A DNA stretch of 64,000 nt from Deltaproteobacteria bacterium GWB2_55_19 (GTDB lineage Bacteria; Desulfobacterota; GWC2-55-46): NCBI GenBank assembly GCA_001797465.1, contig MGPQ01000012.1:62001-126000 (forward strand), read 5' to 3'. Below are positions 4,905-15,345 of this stretch, piece after piece. Below the pieces are notes generated by a model. The model saw only the letters and a program-made list of their open reading frames with translations. It was not told where the DNA came from and did not search any database. Position 1 is the stretch's first letter. The number at the start of each line of letters is the position of its first letter. Made by a program: the position numbers and the translations under genes.

Positions 4905-5264
4905 ATGAAAAAAATATCCTTTGCCGTGTTGCTCTGTCTTGCCGTTTCATCCATAGCCTTTGCCGCTCAATCGTTTGCCGAAGACCCGGCATTTAAAAAA
5001 GGCGAAGAGGCGTTCAACAAAAACTGCGTAAAGTGCCACGGAGAGAAGGCCTCCGGGACCGATAAAGGCCCGCCGCTCATTCATAAATTTTACCACCCGA
5101 ACCACCACTCGGACATAAGCTTCCGCTGGGCCGTGGAAAGGGGCGTGCGCTCACACCACTGGGGGTTCGGCGACATGCCGAAGATAGAGGGCGTCGGCAA
5201 GGAAGACACCGAGAACATCATTATCTACGTCCGCACGCTCCAGAAAGAGGCGGGTATATTTTAA
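4905..5264 (+). CDS. Small monohaem c-type cytochrome, exported
   Basis: 119 aa with a Sec signal peptide (KK, hydrophobic stretch, AFA-A around residue 20) and one haem site CVKCH (Cys41, Cys44, His45). A methionine in GDMPK near residue 88 is a plausible sixth ligand. This is the size and plan of a class I periplasmic cytochrome used as a soluble electron carrier. It lies between copA and a GrdB-like gene whose ATG overlaps its stop codon by one base (TAATG), so the three are likely one transcript. The partner oxidoreductase is not identifiable from the window. Confidence 0.93.
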   Translation: MKKISFAVLLCLAVSSIAFAAQSFAEDPAFKKGEEAFNKNCVKCHGEKASGTDKGPPLIHKFYHPNHHSDISFRWAVERGVRSHHWGFGDMPKIEGVGKEDTENIIIYVRTLQKEAGIF

Positions 5265-6067
5265 TGGGACGGTTCAAAAACAAGGTCCTCGCAAAGCTCT
5301 TGACGCGCTTTCCTGTTCTTCTCGACAGGTTCATCGAGAAGACCGCGTCTGTCGAAGTCTCCGGCATACCCTGGACGCCTGTAAAAAAGCCGTTGGAGGA
5401 CTCCGTTGTCGCGCTCATAACGACAGCCGGGGTCCATCTTAAATCCCAAAACCCATTTGACATGCTGGACAAGGCAGGCGACCCTTCGTACAGGGAAATA
5501 CCGTCAGCGACTCCGCTCTCCGAGTACATGATCACGCACGACTACTACGACCACACGGACGCGGACTCTGACTTGAACATCGTCTTCCCGATAGAGAGGC
5601 TCCGGGAGATGGATGAGAGCGGAGAGATAAAGGGGCTCGCAAAAAATAATTACAGTTTCATGGGGCATATAGACGGCAGACACATCGCTACACTCATGGA
5701 GAAGACCGCGCCAGAGGTGGCTGATTTGCTTAAACGCGAAGGCATCGATGTCGCGCTCCTCACACCCGGGGGAGGTCTCTGCAATCGGTCCGTGGGACTG
5801 ATACAGAGGGAGATAGAAAAGGCGGGGATACCGACGATTTCCGTATCCATCGTGAGAAAGTTCACCGAGGACGTGAAGGCCCCGCGCGCGGTCTTCGTAA
5901 AGTGGCCGATGGGGCACCCTTTGGGGGAGCCTGGTGTCGTCGAGACGCAGAGGGCGGTCTTATCCGCCGCTTTCAGGGCATTAAGGGAGATAAAGGCGCC
6001 GGGGACTATAATAGACCTGCCGTTCCGGTGGAAGAGGAGGGAGGACCTCAAGAAGGAGGCGTTTTGA
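5264..6067 (+). CDS. GrdB-like protein (glycine/sarcosine/betaine reductase component B family) without selenocysteine
   Basis: 267 aa, cytoplasmic. The segment LTPGGGLCNRSVGLIQREIE (from residue 166) aligns by eye with the selenocysteine site of GrdB (consensus as I recall it: TSTUGTCTRC). The selenocysteine is replaced by Gly and only Cys173 remains; there is no in-frame TGA. It is shorter than true GrdB (about 430 aa), so a full glycine or betaine reductase reaction is unlikely. Non-Sec homologues of this kind occur in deltaproteobacteria with unknown function (recollection). Translational coupling to the cytochrome gene suggests co-expression with respiratory or redox functions. I give no substrate. 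Confidence 0.75.
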   Translation: MGRFKNKVLAKLLTRFPVLLDRFIEKTASVEVSGIPWTPVKKPLEDSVVALITTAGVHLKSQNPFDMLDKAGDPSYREIPSATPLSEYMITHDYYDHTDADSDLNIVFPIERLREMDESGEIKGLAKNNYSFMGHIDGRHIATLMEKTAPEVADLLKREGIDVALLTPGGGLCNRSVGLIQREIEKAGIPTISVSIVRKFTEDVKAPRAVFVKWPMGHPLGEPGVVETQRAVLSAAFRALREIKAPGTIIDLPFRWKRREDLKKEAF

Positions 6068-6111
6068 GGTTTTTAGTCGCCTTCTTTTCAAAAGAGGGGT
6101 GATTCCGCATT

Positions 6112-6704
6112 GCGGGTTCAAGTCTGCAACCTGAACCCTTTGATTCGTGACCTGATATGAGTCTGTATTGGGCTATCTCAATTTTTTGCCCAAAGTCCTT
6201 TTTCGTGGTCCGCGCGCTTTTGGCGCATGGGCTCTTAACGCTTTCTTCCTTCCCCTCCCACGGCTCTCAGGTCTCGGCTGTTTGCGCGCCGAGCGCAAGC
6301 GGTCTAATCCGCCCCGGCGCGCTCGCCTCTGCTTTCCTTAGGCGTTCTCCGCCATGCGCCTGTGTGTTTGTAAAGACACAACGAAAAGACAAAATTTTTC
6401 GCGGGTTCAGGTTGCAAACCTGAACCCGCGATAGAGATATCACGCAACGGTATTGTTTTGTATCTAAAAAACCCCGGCGGCATGGTGAGCGTAGCATAAG
6501 GGAGGAGGGTGTGAGCGAGGCGAGGGAGGTTAGACGCGAAGCGCTCAGGGGTCGAGCGAACGGGGCAGGGGAGGCGGTAAGCAAGCGAAGCCATGCCGCG
6601 AAAGCGCGGGACGCGCAAAAAGGCTTTGGGCAGAAGGTTCGAACAGCCCATAAAAGCGTATGTTCGAATTACGAATTAATGGGTTCAGGTTTGTAACCTG
6701 AACC
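6112..6704. repeat. Composite structured repeat A (two divergent units between GGTTCAGG palindromes)
   Basis: This fills most of the 710 bp gene-free stretch between the GrdB-like and cytochrome genes. It is bounded by palindromes of the form GGTTCAGGTT-n3-AACCTGAACC (6112-6138 degraded, 6682-6704 intact). It contains one unit on the minus strand (stem GGCGCATGG 6222-6230 with 6352-6360) and one on the plus strand (GCGGCATGG 6477-6485 with 6591-6599). A third palindrome with perfect 14-bp arms and a GCA loop (6400-6430) sits between the units and is absent from copy B. The same boundaries and units recur at 15451-16103, and one unit recurs at 40555-40735. ORFs inside are not conserved in frame, so it looks non-coding. 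Confidence 0.85.
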
Positions 6705-6741
6705 GCATGAGATTATGAAAACTATTTATAATCCCACTCTG

Positions 6742-6762
6742 TCCCCCTTTATGAAAGGGGGA
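6742..6762. terminator. Hairpin downstream of the six-haem cytochrome gene
   Basis: TCCCCCTTT-ATG-AAAGGGGGA forms a perfect 9-bp stem 16 bp beyond the stop codon of the minus-strand cytochrome gene. No long U-tract follows in that direction, so it may be a weak terminator or a small intergenic palindrome. Confidence 0.4.
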
Positions 6763-6777
6763 TGAAAAGCGCCCCCC

Positions 6778-7920
6778 CTACTGCTGCTTCCTTATTATCG
6801 CGCCACCGGCGCCCTCGTTCATCGCCTTTGTGTGGCACCTGTTGCAGTCCGCGAACTTGAACGAGACCTTGCCGTGGCAGTAGCCGCAGAAGTTCCCGTT
6901 TGACATTTCAGTCATGGAGACGGGGTTTGCCCCGAGAGCTTCCTTGAATATGGACGGGTGGCAGACCGCGCATTTTATCTGCGAGGAGTGCGTCTTGTGG
7001 TCGAAGACGACCTTCTTTATGTAGACCATCGGCGGCTCGAAGAGTATGGTGTTATCCCTTATCTCGTCTTTTTGAGCGGCCTTGACAGCCGATTTTAATG
7101 GTGAAAACGCCTTCTTCTCCCTCATTAGCGTCCAGTCGATGTTCCCGAACCTGTCAAGGGGTATAGTCTTATTCGGGAGCGCCTCGGGGTTGAAGACCGA
7201 CCCGAGCCTGTCGGCGGCCTCTTTTACAGCCTTTATATCGACCTTTTTTATGTCCACGAGCTTTTCCGCCTCCGGGAGCCCGGCAGAGTGGCACCGCTTG
7301 CAGTTTTCCTTTGAGCTGAAAGCGGTCTTGCCGTTGTGGCACGCGCCGCAGACCTTGCCCTCGTCTATCCTTGCGTGCGTTATGGAGTTGGTCCCGCGCC
7401 TCATCTGGACTATATCCTGATGGCAGGCCTTGCACTCGTAGAAGAGCCGGTGGTACCAGTGGGGATAGACGACCGGCGCGAGCCCCTTAGCCTCCATCTC
7501 CATGGTCTTTTCCCTCATGACGAAGTTCCCGAGGGTCTTTTCAAACCTGTCCCACTTGGTGAGCTCGGCTACACGGGCCTCTTCTTTTTTTATCTCCGCC
7601 CTGATTATGGACTCGACCTCGTTTGCGAGCGCGTCGATGTTGTGCCAGTGCTTGTACATCGAGGCCATGGCGCTGGCGAGGTCGAGCAGTTCCATCCTCT
7701 CGGCGTAGCCCTTCTCGGGGGAGAGCGCCTCTTTCATTATCCCCTTTATCTCATCGGGCATTATCGCCTTATTGGTGCGCACCAGAAACCCGAGCGCGTC
7801 GAACCTGTTGGCCCGGTAGCTCTCCTCGAACTGCTTCCTGAAGTTCGAGGCCGCCCCGGCGGTAGTTGATAAAAACAAGATAGAGAGTACGAGTAATATG
7901 GCGGACCCGGTCTTTTTCAT
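6778..7920 (-). CDS. Six-haem periplasmic cytochrome c (c3/c7-like)
   Basis: 380 aa with a signal peptide (MKKTGSAILLVLSILFLS..AGAA). There are six CXXCH sites: C163-H167, C191-H195, C207-H211, C317-H321, C345-H349 and C359-H363. They fall into two groups of three separated by about 105 residues. Each group is preceded by a His-rich strand (HWYH near 154; DHKTHSS near 308), so it looks like two triheme c7-type modules joined by a linker. Residues 25-150 are helical and haem-free. Such proteins carry low-potential electrons in the periplasm. The gene is divergent from an HtrA-type protease gene and stands alone on its strand. Confidence 0.92.
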   Translation of the reverse strand: MKKTGSAILLVLSILFLSTTAGAASNFRKQFEESYRANRFDALGFLVRTNKAIMPDEIKGIMKEALSPEKGYAERMELLDLASAMASMYKHWHNIDALANEVESIIRAEIKKEEARVAELTKWDRFEKTLGNFVMREKTMEMEAKGLAPVVYPHWYHRLFYECKACHQDIVQMRRGTNSITHARIDEGKVCGACHNGKTAFSSKENCKRCHSAGLPEAEKLVDIKKVDIKAVKEAADRLGSVFNPEALPNKTIPLDRFGNIDWTLMREKKAFSPLKSAVKAAQKDEIRDNTILFEPPMVYIKKVVFDHKTHSSQIKCAVCHPSIFKEALGANPVSMTEMSNGNFCGYCHGKVSFKFADCNRCHTKAMNEGAGGAIIRKQQ

Positions 7921-9140: not shown

Positions 9141-9758
9141 ATGAAAAACCAGATACGGCCCGTCTTCGTCGGGGTGCTCCTCGGGATATTCAGCATCATA
9201 TTCGGGATATTCTGGGCGATGTACCTCGCGACCCAGCACGAATCCATTCACAGGACGCTATCCATGAGCGCGCGCTCGTCAATTGAGGGGAAGTTCGTCG
9301 TAAGCCCCGGGGGTGGTCACGCTGACCATGCCGTTGGCGGGCATGCCCAGGCTGGCCACGACGCCGTTGCCGGCAAAATGATGAATGCCGAAGGGGACGC
9401 GAAGTCGATGCGCTCCATTCACTCCGACGATGAGATGGAAGAGGCCCACGAGAGGCTCACCAGAGGGCACCTCCACGCCATGGGGTTAGGCCTTATCACC
9501 ATAAGCGTTTCAGTCCTCCTCTCGTTCTTGTCCGCCTCCCATAAGATGAAGACGCTCGCCGCGACCTGCCTCGGCACGGGAGGCTTCTTTTATCCGTTCT
9601 CGTGGATAATCATGGGGTACAGGACGCCGGCCCTGGGAGCAGAGAGCGCGGCTCAGTCTGTCGTGCCTATCGCGGGCTTAAGCGCCATACTCGTCCTTGC
9701 AGGCGTCTTCTTGACGCTCTTTTTCCTGTTAAGGGACTTCGTCAAGGGGAGGCTTTAG
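9141..9758 (+). CDS. Membrane protein of unknown family with His-rich external loop
   Basis: 205 aa. One helix (about 9-31) precedes a roughly 75-residue hydrophilic loop, then three more helices (about 112-131, 136-158, 175-198). The loop contains a run rich in His and Gly (HADHAVGGHAQAGHD, residues about 60-74) and further His at 94, 103 and 110, suggesting metal or haem binding. I do not recognise the family. It follows the HtrA gene closely (AGGAGAGCAGG ribosome site) and precedes the rnf regulatory region. It could be a small membrane oxidoreductase subunit or a metal sensor; nothing in the sequence decides. Confidence 0.7.
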   Translation: MKNQIRPVFVGVLLGIFSIIFGIFWAMYLATQHESIHRTLSMSARSSIEGKFVVSPGGGHADHAVGGHAQAGHDAVAGKMMNAEGDAKSMRSIHSDDEMEEAHERLTRGHLHAMGLGLITISVSVLLSFLSASHKMKTLAATCLGTGGFFYPFSWIIMGYRTPALGAESAAQSVVPIAGLSAILVLAGVFLTLFFLLRDFVKGRL

Positions 9759-9943: not shown

Positions 9944-9973
9944 TTGACAAGGTGCGGCCCTTTAAATTAATAT
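9944..9973 (+). promoter_or_regulatory. Candidate sigma-70 promoter of the rnf operon
   Basis: TTGACA at 9944-9949 is a perfect -35. A 17-18 bp spacer leads to TTAATA/TAATAT at 9967-9973. The predicted start near 9980 lies just before the riboswitch aptamer, giving a leader of about 225 nt before rnfC. Confidence 0.6.
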
Positions 9974-9992
9974 GGCCACACAATATACATCA

Positions 9993-10115
9993 TCTTTCGC
10001 GACTGACGGAATCAAGGTGGTTACCACCGGGGAGCGGGAGAATATATAAGTTCTTGTCGACCGTCTGGGCAACAGGTGCAGTAACACTGCCCTCTTATGC
10101 CTTGACGGTTTTTTT
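9993..10115 (+). ncRNA. ZTP (pfl-type) riboswitch with transcription-termination switch
   Basis: Stem P1 pairs TCTTTCGC (9993-10000) with GCGGGAGA (10034-10041). P2 pairs GGTGG (10016-10020) with CCACC (10024-10028). The motifs CGACTGACGG and CCACCGGGGAGCG, followed by CCGTCTGGGCA, match the ZTP aptamer consensus (GACTGGCG..., ...CCACCGGGGAGCG..., CCGCCTGGGCA). The pseudoknot is kept by a compensating change: GACGG (10005-10009) with CCGTC (10061-10065) instead of the usual GGCGG/CCGCC. A second GACGG at 10104-10108, followed by seven T, pairs with the same CCGTC to build a terminator enclosing GCAGT/ACTGC. Ligand binding would hold CCGTC in the pseudoknot and let transcription reach rnfC, an ON switch for ZMP/ZTP. 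Confidence 0.92.
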
Positions 10116-10204
10116 GTACCATAGCGGCGTCTTTATTGTGAAGCAGTCTTAACTTTTTCAGATAAGCCTTTAAAAATTCTGGATTTTTTGTTAAGATAAT
10201 AAAA

Positions 10205-11548
10205 ATGGGACACAAGACATTCGACAGGGGCGTACACCCCTCTTACTATAAGGAGCTGACGGCCTCTAAAAGGGTCGAGAGGGCCCCTCTTCCAAAGACT
10301 GTTACCATCCCCCTCCAGCAACACCTCGGCGCGGTCTGCGAGCCTATTGTCAAGAAGGGCGACCTCGTCATCGAAGGGCAGAAGATAGGCGACGTAAAGG
10401 CCTTTGTCTCTGCCCCTGTCCACGCGTCCATCAACGGAAAAGTGAAGGATATAGAGCTCTCCAATCACCCGGGCGGCATAAGGGTGTTGTCTGTCGTCAT
10501 CGAGGGCGACGGGACCGCAAAGGAATGGTCCGGGGCCGAGATAGACCTCGGCTCAATTGCGCCTGAGGCCCTCCGGGAGGCTGTACGCGAGGCCGGGATA
10601 GTAGGCATGGGAGGCGCTGGTTTCCCAACATCCGTAAAGCTCGCGCCGCCCAAAGGCAAGGCTATCGAAGCCGTCATATTGAACGGTTGCGAGTGCGAGC
10701 CGTTTCTCACAGCCGACCACAGGATAATGGCCGAGGAGCCCGGAAAGGTCGTCTGGGGCTTGAAGGCCCTTATGAGGGCGACCGGGGCGTCCAAGGGCTT
10801 CATAGGAATAGAAGAGAACAAGCCTGACGCGATCGACGCGCTCAAGAAGGCGGTCGGCGCAACGGGCATTGAGATAATAGTCCTTGAGGCCAAGTACCCG
10901 CAGGGCGCCGAGAAGATGCTTATACAGGCCGCTCTTGGCAGGAAGGTCCCGGTCGGCAAGCTCCCGCTCGACGTGGGCGTCGTAGTAAATAACGTCGGCA
11001 CGGCTGTGGCGATTTACGAGGCCCTGAATTACGGGAAACCGCTTATCGAAAGGATAGTCACCGTGAGCGGCAACGGCGTAAGGGAGCCGAAGAACCTTAA
11101 GGTAAGGGTAGGGACGAGCTTCGAAGAGGTCCTGGGCCTCTGCGGGGGGATCACCGGCGAAGGCGAAAAAGAGGTCCTGAACGGCGGCCCTATGATGGGC
11201 ATCGCACAGTCTACCTTGAGCGTCCCGGTCATAAAAGGGACTTCCGGAATAACGGTCATAGCCTCCGGCAAGATAAAGCCCGAGAAGTACGACCCCTGCA
11301 TCAAGTGCGCGAGTTGTGTATCCGCCTGCCCCATGGGGCTCATGCCGTACAGGCTCGGCGATTATGGCCTTAAACAGATGCTCGCCAACTTCAAGGACTT
11401 TGACGGACAGAGCTGCATCGAGTGCGGCTGTTGCTCTTACGTATGCCCTGCCAAGAGGCCGCTCCTCCAGTGGATAAGGATGGGCAAGTTCTTCATCCGG
11501 CGGGAGGCCCAGAGGGCGGCCGCCAAGGCTAACAATAACAAAAAGTAG
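10205..11548 (+). CDS. rnfC: Ion-translocating Rnf complex subunit C
   Basis: 447 aa. The N-terminal barrel-sandwich part and the flavin/NADH-binding core (GMGGAGFPTSVK, GCECEPFLTADHRIM) are typical of RnfC. Two [4Fe-4S] motifs follow: CIKCASCVSACP (about 364-375) and CIECGCCSYVCP (about 403-414). RnfC is the peripheral subunit that exchanges electrons with NAD(H). The ATG at 10205 has no clear Shine-Dalgarno site and follows an AT-rich segment about 90 nt after the riboswitch terminator. First gene of an uninterrupted rnfCDGEAB operon; rnfD begins 7 bp later. Confidence 0.97.
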   Translation: MGHKTFDRGVHPSYYKELTASKRVERAPLPKTVTIPLQQHLGAVCEPIVKKGDLVIEGQKIGDVKAFVSAPVHASINGKVKDIELSNHPGGIRVLSVVIEGDGTAKEWSGAEIDLGSIAPEALREAVREAGIVGMGGAGFPTSVKLAPPKGKAIEAVILNGCECEPFLTADHRIMAEEPGKVVWGLKALMRATGASKGFIGIEENKPDAIDALKKAVGATGIEIIVLEAKYPQGAEKMLIQAALGRKVPVGKLPLDVGVVVNNVGTAVAIYEALNYGKPLIERIVTVSGNGVREPKNLKVRVGTSFEEVLGLCGGITGEGEKEVLNGGPMMGIAQSTLSVPVIKGTSGITVIASGKIKPEKYDPCIKCASCVSACPMGLMPYRLGDYGLKQMLANFKDFDGQSCIECGCCSYVCPAKRPLLQWIRMGKFFIRREAQRAAAKANNNKK

Positions 11549-11555
11549 AGAGTAC

Positions 11556-12584
11556 ATGGAAGACAAAACAAACGATAAGACGGAAGTCAAATCAGCGCCC
11601 GAGGCCCCGGCAGGCCCAGGCGGCGCGAGGCTCTTTGTAACGTCCTCGCCCCACTTCCTCAATAACGAGTCTGTGCCGAAGATAATGCACACGGTCGTGC
11701 TCGCGCTCTTCCCGGCGATGGCGGCATCCGTCTATTTCTTCGGCTTCCGTGCGCTCCTTTTATACGCCATCTGCATCGGCGCGTGCTTACTCACCGAGTA
11801 CGCATTCCAGAAGTACATGAAGAGGCCAATAAAGATATACGACGGCTCTGCCATCATCACAGGCATACTCCTCGCCATGACGCTTCCGCCGGGGTTCCCG
11901 GTCTTCGGAGCGATACTCGGCTCGGTCTTCGCCATAGGCGTCGGAAAACAGCTCTTCGGCGGGCTCGGTTTCAACATATTCAACCCGGCGCTCCTCGGCA
12001 GGGCCTTCCTCATGGCCACATACCCGGTCCTTACTACCACTTGGGTGGAGCCCCGGACCGTACAGAAGGCGGTAGACGCGGTATCCGCCGCGACCCCTCT
12101 GGCGCTCATGAAGTTCGAGGGAAAGCTTACGCCAATACTCGACCTCTTTACCGGGAACGTCGCCGGGTCGCTCGGCGAGACTTCGGCGATAGCGATACTC
12201 ATAGGCGGCCTGTTCCTCAGGTACAAGGGCTATGTTAACTGGAAGCTCCCGCTCGGGTATCTCGGGTCGATGGCGATATTTTCCGGCATATTCTGGCTCA
12301 TCGACCCTTCGAAGTATCCGGACCCGCTCTTCCATTTATTCGCCGGCGGCGCGATGCTCGGCGCGTGGTTCATGGTCACAGACATGGTGACGTCTCCGAC
12401 GACTGATATCGGCCAGTGGATATTCGCGATAACGGGCGGGATAATGGCCGTTGTCATAAGGCTCTTCGGCGGGCTCCCCGAGGGCGTCATGTATTCTATA
12501 CTCTTCATGAACGCCTTTGTGCCGCTTCTTAATAAGCACACGAGGCCGAGGGTCTTCGGCGCGATAAAGGCGAAGGCCGAATAG
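11556..12584 (+). CDS. rnfD: Ion-translocating Rnf complex subunit D
   Basis: 342 aa integral membrane protein with about ten hydrophobic helices. The covalent FMN site is visible as SAATPL near residue 180 (family consensus S-x-x-T). The N-terminal 35 residues are hydrophilic and Ala/Pro-rich, a little longer than usual. RnfD is homologous to NqrB and forms the core of the cation-translocating path. Downstream rnfG starts 35 bp after its stop. Confidence 0.96.
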   Translation: MEDKTNDKTEVKSAPEAPAGPGGARLFVTSSPHFLNNESVPKIMHTVVLALFPAMAASVYFFGFRALLLYAICIGACLLTEYAFQKYMKRPIKIYDGSAIITGILLAMTLPPGFPVFGAILGSVFAIGVGKQLFGGLGFNIFNPALLGRAFLMATYPVLTTTWVEPRTVQKAVDAVSAATPLALMKFEGKLTPILDLFTGNVAGSLGETSAIAILIGGLFLRYKGYVNWKLPLGYLGSMAIFSGIFWLIDPSKYPDPLFHLFAGGAMLGAWFMVTDMVTSPTTDIGQWIFAITGGIMAVVIRLFGGLPEGVMYSILFMNAFVPLLNKHTRPRVFGAIKAKAE

Positions 12585-12619
12585 CGTTTTTTTAAAGAGT
12601 TTTTGGAGGTCTCTGGTCC

Positions 12620-13270
12620 TTGAATCCGGTAACTAAAATGTTCATGAACCTTGTCGGCGTCGGTGTGGTTTCCGGCGTGATACTCGCGGCTGTCTTCTAC
12701 AAGGCAGACCCTATGATACAGGCGAACAAGGAAAAAGAGCTGAAGGAGGCGATATTCGTCGTCCTCCCCGAGGCCAGGGACTATAAGATATTGAAGAAGT
12801 CGCTCGGCCAGGAAGAGTTCACGATGTACGCCGGACTTAACGAGGCCGGAGAGCCCATCGGCCTCGCCTTCAAGGCCGACGGCGGCGGCTTCCAGGGCAA
12901 TATCGGCGTCATGGTCGGACTCGACCTCGATTACTTGAAGCTCAAGGGCATAAGGATCCTCGACCAGCTTGAGACCCCGGGCCTCGGCAACAGGATAGCC
13001 AACCCGGAGTTCGAGGACCAGTTCAAGGGCATAGAGATAAAGCCCAAGGTCGAGTACATAAAGAACAGGAAGCCCGAGAAGCCGAACCAGATACAGTCCA
13101 TAACCGGCGCGACTATCTCCTCGGACGCGGTCGTCAAGAACATAAACAACGCGATAGAGAAGGCGCTCAAATCCTTCCCTACGAAGGAAGACCTACTTGC
13201 CGCCGAAAAGGCGGTAAAGCCGGCCTCAGCTACTGTGAAGGCAAAGGAGGCGACGGATGGCGGAAAATAA
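12620..13270 (+). CDS. rnfG: Ion-translocating Rnf complex subunit G (covalent FMN)
   Basis: 216 aa with one N-terminal membrane helix (10-27) and a periplasmic FMN-binding domain. The flavinylation motif is SITGATIS (160-167), FMN being attached to Thr165 by analogy with RnfG/NqrC. I chose the TTG at 12620 because GGAGG lies at 12604-12608; an ATG at 12638 would drop six residues. The C-terminal tail after residue 185 is Lys/Ala-rich and low in complexity. Its stop overlaps rnfE by 14 bp. Covalent attachment needs an ApbE-type flavin transferase, not seen in this window. Confidence 0.95.
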   Translation: MNPVTKMFMNLVGVGVVSGVILAAVFYKADPMIQANKEKELKEAIFVVLPEARDYKILKKSLGQEEFTMYAGLNEAGEPIGLAFKADGGGFQGNIGVMVGLDLDYLKLKGIRILDQLETPGLGNRIANPEFEDQFKGIEIKPKVEYIKNRKPEKPNQIQSITGATISSDAVVKNINNAIEKALKSFPTKEDLLAAEKAVKPASATVKAKEATDGGK

Positions 13271-13889
13271 CGGCTATTCACTCTGGTACGAGTTCAAAAA
13301 GGGGCTCTGGCAGGACATACCGCCCTTTAGATTGGTCCTCGGCACCTGTCCCACGCTCGCCGTCACGAACTCGGTCATAAACGGCTTTGCCATGGGCATG
13401 GCTACCCTATTTGTGCTCCTCGGCTCCAACATCATAATATCTGCTATAAGGAAGTATGTCGCCCCGCAGGTGAGGATCGCGGCATACGTCGTCATCATCG
13501 CGCTCCTTGTGACCGTCGCGGACATGTTCCTCGCGGCCTTTTTCCCGCCGGTATCAAAGGCGCTCGGGCCGTACGTGCCGCTCATAGTCGTCAACTGCAT
13601 CATACTCGGGCGCGCTGAGGCGTACGCGCAGAAGAACCCGGTCGTGCCGTCCATTATGGACGCGCTCGGCATAGGCATTGGCTTTACCATGAGCCTCATG
13701 GTAATGGGTTTTATAAGGGAGATACTCGGCTTCGGGTCGCTATTCAACATAAAGCTCATCCCCCCGTCCCTGTTTGAGCCCTGGATAGTGATGATACTCC
13801 CGGCGGGCGCGTTCCTCGTGTTCGGAACGCTCATAGCCGTAGTCAATTACATATCGAGCAGGAAGTCCGCCGCATCGGACAAGGCGTAA
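13257..13889 (+). CDS. rnfE: Ion-translocating Rnf complex subunit E
   Basis: 210 aa, six predicted membrane helices. LGTCPTLAVTNSVINGFAMG near the N-terminus carries the conserved cysteine that, with its counterpart in RnfA, holds the intramembrane iron site. The sequence LIVVNCIILGRAEAYA near 115-130 is diagnostic of RnfE/NqrD. Translation is coupled to rnfG through a 14 bp overlap and an AAAGGAGG site. The C-terminal tail is Ser/Ala-rich. Confidence 0.96.
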   Translation: MAENNGYSLWYEFKKGLWQDIPPFRLVLGTCPTLAVTNSVINGFAMGMATLFVLLGSNIIISAIRKYVAPQVRIAAYVVIIALLVTVADMFLAAFFPPVSKALGPYVPLIVVNCIILGRAEAYAQKNPVVPSIMDALGIGIGFTMSLMVMGFIREILGFGSLFNIKLIPPSLFEPWIVMILPAGAFLVFGTLIAVVNYISSRKSAASDKA

Positions 13890-13902
13890 AGGAGAGAGAC
13901 CC

Positions 13903-14481
13903 GTGAAGCTCATAATGATATTCATATCGGCCTCTCTCATCAACAACTTCGTTCTAACATACTTTTTGGGAATTTGTCCGTTCGTCGGCGTCTCCAACAA
14001 GACCGAGAACGCACTTAATATGGGGCTTGCGACGACCTTCGTCATGACGCTCACGGCCGCTGTGACCTGGCCGGTTTACACATACATACTCGTCAAATAC
14101 AATGTCGCGTTCCTCCAGTACGTCGCGTTCATCATACTCATAGCCGCTCTCGTGCAGTTGGTCGAGATGTACATAAGGAAGTCGAGCCCCGCGCTTTACA
14201 GGGCTTTGGGTATTTATCTCCCGCTCATCACCACGAACTGCGCGGTCCTCGGGCTCGCGCTCTTCATGGTCTTACGTAGTTATAGCTACATCGAATCCAT
14301 CATATTCGGCTTCGCCACAGGCGTTGGCTTCACGCTCGCGATCCTCATGATGTCGGGCATAAGGGAAGAGCTCGAGTTCGCGGACATTCCAAAGCCTTTC
14401 CAGGGTATATCCATTACTCTTATCGTTGCCGGCATGATGGCCCTCGCGTTCATGGGATTCGCGGGCCTTATAAGGGGTTAG
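13903..14481 (+). CDS. rnfA: Ion-translocating Rnf complex subunit A
   Basis: 192 aa, six predicted membrane helices, close in length to other RnfA/NqrE proteins. NNFVLTYFLGICPFVGVSNK contains the cysteine paired with that of RnfE across the pseudo-twofold membrane iron site, and LITTNCAVLGLALF is the second conserved cysteine segment. A GTG codon shortly before the ATG is excluded because a good AGGAGAG site fits the GTG/ATG pair at 13903. Next gene rnfB starts 3 bp after the stop. Confidence 0.96.
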   Translation: MKLIMIFISASLINNFVLTYFLGICPFVGVSNKTENALNMGLATTFVMTLTAAVTWPVYTYILVKYNVAFLQYVAFIILIAALVQLVEMYIRKSSPALYRALGIYLPLITTNCAVLGLALFMVLRSYSYIESIIFGFATGVGFTLAILMMSGIREELEFADIPKPFQGISITLIVAGMMALAFMGFAGLIRG

Positions 14482-14484
14482 ACA

Positions 14485-15345
14485 ATGGCTGGTCTTGGCG
14501 AAATGGTCCTCATATCGTTCATATCCATGGGTGGGATAGGCGCCGCGCTCGCGGGCTTCCTCGCGTATGCGGACAAGAAGCTCAAGGTCGAGGAAGACCC
14601 GATGGTCGAGGCGATCTGCGGCATACTTCCGAATACCAACTGCGGCGGGTGCGGGTTCCCCGGTTGCAGGATGCTCGCCGAAGCGCTCTTGAAGGGCGAG
14701 GCGCCGCCTAACTCGTGCGTCGCCGGCGGATCCGACACGGCGAAAAAACTCGCCGCGGTCCTCGGCATGGACCACACTGACCACAAGAGGACACTCGCCG
14801 TCGTACTCTGCAAGGGCGGGAACGCAGAGGCCGAGAGGCGCGCCTCCTACCGCGGAGAGGTCTCCTGCACCGCCGCCAATCTTACGGGCGGCGACAAGAG
14901 CTGTACATACGGGTGCCTTGGGTACGGCGAGTGCGTAGAGGCCTGCAAGTTCGACGCGATGGCCATGGACGACAACGGATTGCCCGTAGTGTTTCATGAC
15001 AAGTGCGTGGGGTGCGGCGCGTGCGCCAGGGCCTGTCCCCGCGATATCATAGAGATGCACCCTGAGGACCACAAGCTCTTCGTATACTGCAGGTCCAGGG
15101 ACAAGGGCGCGCACGCCAAGAAGGTCTGCAAGGTCTCTTGCATAGCCTGCGGCCTTTGCGTAAAGGACTGTTCTGTCTCTGACGGCATTGTTCTTAAGGA
15201 TAACCTCGCCGTCGTCGATTACGCGCTCGCCCCTCAGACCGACGAGTCCATCAAGAGGTGCCCGACGAAGTGCATATTCTTCGGAATAGAGGAGAGGGTC
15301 ACAAAGGCGAGTTTTTTCGCCTCACAGCCGAAGAGGACGGGGTAG
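14485..15345 (+). CDS. rnfB: Ion-translocating Rnf complex subunit B (ferredoxin-like)
   Basis: 286 aa. An N-terminal membrane helix (about 8-28) precedes the Fe-S domain with Cys45, 53, 56 and 61 (CGILPN...CGGCGFPGC). A cysteine-rich region follows: CTYGCLGYGECVEAC (about 137-151), CVGCGACARACP (about 173-184) and CIACGLCVKDC (about 214-224). This is the ferredoxin-accepting subunit. Three C-terminal cluster motifs make it one of the cluster-rich RnfB forms typical of anaerobes. It is the last gene of the operon, with a strong intrinsic terminator 45 bp downstream. Confidence 0.96.
   Translation: MAGLGEMVLISFISMGGIGAALAGFLAYADKKLKVEEDPMVEAICGILPNTNCGGCGFPGCRMLAEALLKGEAPPNSCVAGGSDTAKKLAAVLGMDHTDHKRTLAVVLCKGGNAEAERRASYRGEVSCTAANLTGGDKSCTYGCLGYGECVEACKFDAMAMDDNGLPVVFHDKCVGCGACARACPRDIIEMHPEDHKLFVYCRSRDKGAHAKKVCKVSCIACGLCVKDCSVSDGIVLKDNLAVVDYALAPQTDESIKRCPTKCIFFGIEERVTKASFFASQPKRTG

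Follow-up and report, generated by a model that had tools for sequence, protein, structure and literature searches.

In this study, we describe a ZMP/ZTP riboswitch directly upstream of an rnf operon in a 64 kb stretch of bacterial DNA (the window, by which we mean the whole stretch analysed), and relate it to the other targets of the same switch in the class to which the window belongs. We consider it likely that a ZMP/ZTP-responsive transcriptional ON riboswitch controls rnfCDGEAB, within a regulon that would also take in the reductive TCA cycle and serine and purine synthesis. ZTP riboswitches are known for regulating purine and one-carbon genes, and their wiring to rnf would couple an alarm over one-carbon shortage to the fixation of carbon and the electrons that it needs.

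Aptamer identity and architecture

The sole match in an Rfam scan of the window was the ZMP/ZTP riboswitch aptamer (RF01750) at 9989-10077 on the + strand, the strand of all the RNA, promoter and rnf features given below. It is full length (model positions 1-86 of 86) and scores 58.5 bits against a gathering score of 39; a chance match was rejected on its E-value of 6.5e-7 and the conservation of the aptamer in relatives. Covariance-model alignment and folding place the P1/P2 subdomain at 9993-10041, with P1 pairing 9993-10000 to 10034-10041, P2 pairing 10016-10020 to 10024-10028, and the conserved CCACCGGGGAGCG lying within it at 10024-10036. The P3 hairpin, placed at 10054-10072 by the same alignment, has a stem of 10054-10058 with 10068-10072 and carries in its loop (L3) the strand CCGUC (10061-10065), which by reading of the sequence partners GACGG in J1/2 (10005-10009). 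The resulting J1/2-L3 pseudoknot connects P1/P2 with P3, as the class requires, and differs from the Rfam consensus GGCGG/CCGCC by one compensating change, G-C to A-U. Directly 3' of CCGUC in L3 are the ligand-contact base U10066 and the stacking base G10067, equivalent to U94 and G95 of C. beijerinckii (PMC10687018). The window RNA is an ordinary member of the ZMP/ZTP riboswitch class. The first-pass annotation had called it a ZTP riboswitch, to be checked against the Rfam covariance model, with P1, P2 and a compensated GACGG/CCGUC pseudoknot; the score bears out the first call, and sequence and alignment the second.

Relatives of the window carry the same RNA. In nearly all of 93 related aptamers, most of which score 50-68 bits with RF01750, the pocket bases and the pseudoknot are preserved, and the GACGG/CCGUC pseudoknot is found in 91 of the 93, the A-U variant not being special to rnf. 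Identity between aptamers is 0.72-0.76 where the target is the same and 0.70-0.72 where it is another, a range in which target hardly separates the copies. In two aptamers of IDH leaders (L114 in G057 and L122 in G007), additional hairpins some 30-60 nt long lie within J1/2, 3' of the pseudoknot strand and 5' of P2, an insertion site unusual for the riboswitch class.

Promoter and terminator

A consensus scan places a sigma-70-type promoter for the riboswitch transcript, P1, at 9944-9973 (10/12): TTGACA at 9944-9949, an 18 nt spacer and TAATAT at 9968-9973, ending about 16 nt 5' of the aptamer. Matches of at least 9/12 occur within 90 nt upstream of 85 of the 93 related aptamers. On the other side, the minimum free energy (MFE) structure gives an intrinsic terminator at 10059-10115 that overlaps P3 and the pseudoknot. 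Its stem pairs GACCGUC.GGGCA (10059-10071) with UGCCU.GACGGUU (10098-10110), an inner hairpin pairs 10078-10082 with 10086-10090, and a U7 tract follows at 10109-10115; the leader from 9980 to 10118 folds at -46.4 kcal/mol (z -3.2 against dinucleotide shuffles). In a shorter transcript ending at 10090, which lacks the 3' arm of the terminator, the fold prediction retains P1/P2. The first-pass annotation had proposed that a second GACGG, followed by T7, competes for CCGTC, and both the MFE structure and the shorter-transcript fold agree with a terminator of that kind.

Because P3 and the CCGUC strand form the 5' arm of the terminator, the aptamer and terminator states are mutually exclusive, and the overlap therefore predicts a transcriptional ON switch. 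ON switches of the class are typically built in this way (PMC7337938, PMC10687018). The helix between L3 and the terminator arm is present in the MFE structure of 28 of 29 related rnf leaders, and the arm pairs fully with CCGUC in 74 of the 93 related leaders, so that folds and comparison of relatives alike give a terminator-type expression platform competing with P3 and the pseudoknot.

The downstream operon

All six subunits of the Rnf complex are encoded in a single cluster (10205-15345) in the order C, D, G, E, A, B, and five of them exceed their NCBIfam TIGR cut-offs. The first gene after the switch is rnfC (10205-11548), as had been claimed from the letters alone; it matches TIGR01945 at 519 bits (cut-off 246), with RnfC_N and Complex1_51K. 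It is followed by rnfD (11556-12584; TIGR01946, 338 bits, cut-off 207), rnfG (12620-13270; TIGR01947), rnfE (13257-13889; TIGR01948, 234.6 bits, cut-off 213), rnfA (13903-14481; TIGR01943, 257 bits, cut-off 229) and rnfB (14485-15345; TIGR01944, 117 bits, cut-off 68.7). The rnfG match falls just below its cut-off (100.2 against 102 bits), and the gene is placed between rnfD and rnfE.

Two further features of the neighbourhood may be recorded. Upstream of the switch, 9141-9755 encodes a predicted protein of 205 aa with no Pfam match, and at 4905-7920, near rnf, lies a cluster of cytochrome c, GRDB-like protein (PF07355) and multihaem cytochrome genes. The cytochrome c/GRDB-like cluster has a counterpart at 922-3444 of L215 in genome G012, where it adjoins a ZTP-pyrophosphatase-PntA locus.

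Conservation of the pairing

We compared the places of aptamers with those of rnfC in 60 genomes. In the window's family (f1), 25 of the 27 sampled genomes with a recognisable rnfC, spread across the sampled genera, carry the aptamer immediately 5' of that gene, the exceptions being G007 and G012. The pairing recurs in three of four sampled genomes of family f7 and one of four of f11; it was not found in the remaining sampled families of the class, among them f4, whose sampled genomes keep the switch before IDH. A search for ZTP riboswitches ahead of rnfC in related genomes, suggested at the outset, thus had a positive outcome, and with 29 rnf leaders bearing the aptamer in relatives, an isolated case or an error of assembly was rejected as the explanation. 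The conservation of the switch implies that it is under selection.

Beyond the class, a sample of 297 genomes of the phylum contained 17 with a ZTP switch and 91 with an rnfC-like gene, and no ZTP-rnfC pair outside the window's class. Of 80 named rnfC loci, five are preceded by the aptamer, and these five come from metagenome-assembled genomes deposited as Deltaproteobacteria and originating from groundwater and a RIFCSPHIGHO2 sample. The flanks of all scanned rnfC loci not labelled Deltaproteobacteria lacked a ZTP aptamer; some of the corresponding genomes carry ZTP switches at other places. A general link between ZTP and rnf across bacteria was accordingly rejected, being seen neither in the phylum sample nor at the other rnf loci. 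In one genome of the phylum, a second ZTP aptamer follows the first on the same strand at a distance of about 3.2 kb (L204, G264:C87:23974-27323).

Other targets of the switch

To understand what the switch may serve at rnf, its other targets are informative. Four ZTP switches occur in the window genome, where they precede AGT-serA-hisZ-purA, IDH-ACL, rnfC and a CPA2 antiporter. The first gene after the 93 switches is monomeric IDH in 32 cases, RnfC in 29, a class-V aminotransferase in 19, a CPA2 antiporter in five and SucC in two, with single cases of dimeric IDH, ACL, PntA, inorganic pyrophosphatase and KUP; one site lies at a contig end. IDH-ACL is thus the most frequent ZTP target in the class, and 11 of 12 monomeric-IDH loci examined continue into both ATP-citrate-lyase-like subunits. 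The order aminotransferase-serA-hisZ-purA follows the switch in the window genome and in five of five relatives. In a sister order, another switch of G051 precedes sucC-sucD-korD-korA, the last two being a small ferredoxin and an oxidoreductase alpha subunit that read as KGOR from sequence, with a POR_N match at the same place. In G054, likewise of a sister order, a switch precedes three transhydrogenase-like genes (PntAB) and a pyrophosphatase, and in G012 one precedes a pyrophosphatase and a PntA-like gene. Elsewhere in the phylum, the switch precedes fhs in G117 and G151 and aminotransferase-serA in G249; in the phylum sample, rnf and TCA genes behind the switch were observed in the window's class alone.

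Some targets are curious in themselves. At L241 (G051:C4:37992-41500) the order ZTP-IDH-ACL is kept with an IDH of the unrelated dimeric family, the switch having stayed while the enzyme was exchanged. G051 also has KUP behind a ZTP switch. In five of five genomes of the window's genus, a CPA2-type cation:proton antiporter lies behind a ZTP switch (L213, G000:C7:1-4600; L004, L018, L084, L096, L098), and it might balance ions for Rnf.

In terms of pathway, the ACL-like enzyme has a Citrate_bind domain and is nearest, among solved structures, to citryl-CoA synthetase and citrate lyase. The sequence evidence points to an ATP-citrate lyase (or citryl-CoA synthetase/lyase) such as the reductive TCA cycle calls for, and both enzyme types fit. 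The window genome has two POR-type (POR_N) ferredoxin oxidoreductase genes, and in G051 a gene of this type adjoins sucCD. No match to CdhC (CODH/ACS) turned up among the sampled genomes of the class, and Rnf as a component of the Wood-Ljungdahl pathway was rejected for the window's family on this ground. Together the genes suggest an autotrophic lineage. IDH in the reductive direction consumes NADPH, KGOR and pyruvate synthase consume reduced ferredoxin, and Rnf, if powered by an ion gradient, is able to reduce ferredoxin with NADH. When these needs are set beside the outputs of Rnf and transhydrogenase, the target list pairs consumers with suppliers, and the repetition of this pairing aids prediction of physiology for an uncultured lineage.

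Proposed mechanism and alternatives

From the computed aptamer, platform, conservation and target genes, we infer ligand binding, switching and the directions of Rnf and the TCA cycle as follows. Transcription would start just 5' of the aptamer. At low ligand, the downstream GACGG arm would capture CCGUC and the P3 strand, and the terminator so formed would stop the polymerase near 10115. A shortage of 10-formyl-THF would lead to accumulation of ZMP/ZTP, which would stabilise P3 and the pseudoknot; with the ligand bound, no terminator would form and RNA polymerase would continue into rnf. Rnf would then be induced together with the reductive TCA cycle, yielding low-potential electrons for carbon fixation and for synthesis of precursors (serine, glycine, C1 units, purines) whenever the alarmone signals shortage. 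A rise in ZTP would here mean a demand for more fixed carbon and reductant, with the serA-purA switch as the classical one-carbon and purine side of the response.

The aptamer and terminator platform, conserved directly upstream of rnfC, make it very probable that Rnf is expressed in response to ZMP/ZTP. The co-regulated IDH-ACL, serA-purA, sucCD-KGOR and transhydrogenase genes point to a purpose in reductive-TCA fixation and reductant supply, in which Rnf would take part, rather than in formyl-THF synthesis itself. Whether the arrangement amounts to a class-wide ZTP ON switch for autotrophy, with reductive-TCA enzymes, Rnf, transhydrogenase and serine/purine synthesis all ZMP/ZTP-responsive, is in our estimate an even question. 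If it does, the ZTP alarmone would in some bacteria govern both carbon fixation and the delivery of low-potential electrons. The link between ZTP and Rnf is readily testable in vitro, since ligand and assays are known.

A different purpose would be that the switch senses ZMP/ZTP and rnf mainly gives direct support to the synthesis of formyl-THF and purines. Purine and formyl-THF genes are the classical targets of ZTP switches (the 2010 survey lists them for the motif; Weinberg 2010, PMC2864571), a sister switch controls AGT-serA-hisZ-purA, and fhs comes under ZTP control in other parts of the phylum. Nevertheless, fhs had no detectable match in four genomes with the ZTP-rnfC pair (G008, G009, G018 and G035), the fhs and purH of the window genome lie away from its four switch sites, and the commonest target in the class is IDH-ACL, which together make a direct role in formyl-THF synthesis unlikely. 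The first-pass annotation had inferred a response of Rnf to one-carbon starvation, perhaps to adjust ferredoxin/NADH balance for formyl-THF synthesis: the response to ZMP/ZTP is supported by the conserved switch, but the findings on fhs, purH, CODH/ACS and the co-regulated genes leave that purpose doubtful.

It could also be that a second promoter 3' of the terminator supplies most rnf transcripts and the switch is of little effect. A separate promoter between 10115 and 10205 had been named at the outset as one that would bypass the switch; the window has no site of at least 9/12 there, the best being 8/12, a level at which its nearest genus-mates likewise stop. About half of the related rnf leaders (14 of 29, against 2.6 expected) do have such a site between terminator and rnfC. 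In family f1 it takes the recurrent form TTGAC[C/T/A/G]-N17/18-TAT[C/T]A[C/A], its -10 element in most genera usually ending some 13-22 nt 5' of the rnfC start codon (for example L007, L015, L026, L075 and L090) and the element being degraded in the window's genus. A smaller excess is seen in IDH leaders (9 against 4.4 expected) and aminotransferase leaders (5 against 2.3). Given the low scores in the window's genus and the conservation of the switch, we think it quite improbable that such a promoter makes the switch unimportant. Where relatives have the second promoter, the switch probably supplements basal rnf expression rather than gating it; in the window's genus, lacking a good second promoter, control by the switch should be tighter.

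Finally, it is very improbable that the aptamers of the lineage changed ligand and now sense another central-carbon metabolite: this would explain TCA and Rnf targets, a set unusual for the class, but sits poorly with the near-universal integrity of pocket and pseudoknot, the high scores and the same aptamer type before serA-purA in the lineage and before fhs elsewhere in the phylum.

Comparison with known systems

The literature searched, with Kim 2015 and supplements outside the search and priority therefore unproven, held no link between a ZTP riboswitch and rnf or the TCA cycle, and for ZTP, riboswitch and isocitrate dehydrogenase together it gave only a cancer review. In aptamer architecture, pseudoknot, pocket bases and terminator overlap, the switch of the window resembles the ON switches of C. 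beijerinckii pfl and T. carboxydivorans (PMC10687018, PMC7337938). It departs from the known ZMP/ZTP class (the pfl motif) in that one G-C pair of the pseudoknot is A-U throughout the lineage, and in its targets, which in this lineage are rnf, IDH-ACL, SucCD-KGOR and transhydrogenase, in contrast to the purH, fhs, folD, glyA and pfl of the known class. Nearer by, the switch of G249 shares with the window's family an aminotransferase-serA target; unlike the switches of G117, G151 and G249, those with rnf and TCA targets are confined to the window's class in our sample. The operon encodes the same complex as the Rnf operons of Clostridia and other anaerobes (RnfC relatives), whereas those scanned have no flanking ZTP aptamer. 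Thus, the RNA is ordinary and its wiring to rnf is unusual.
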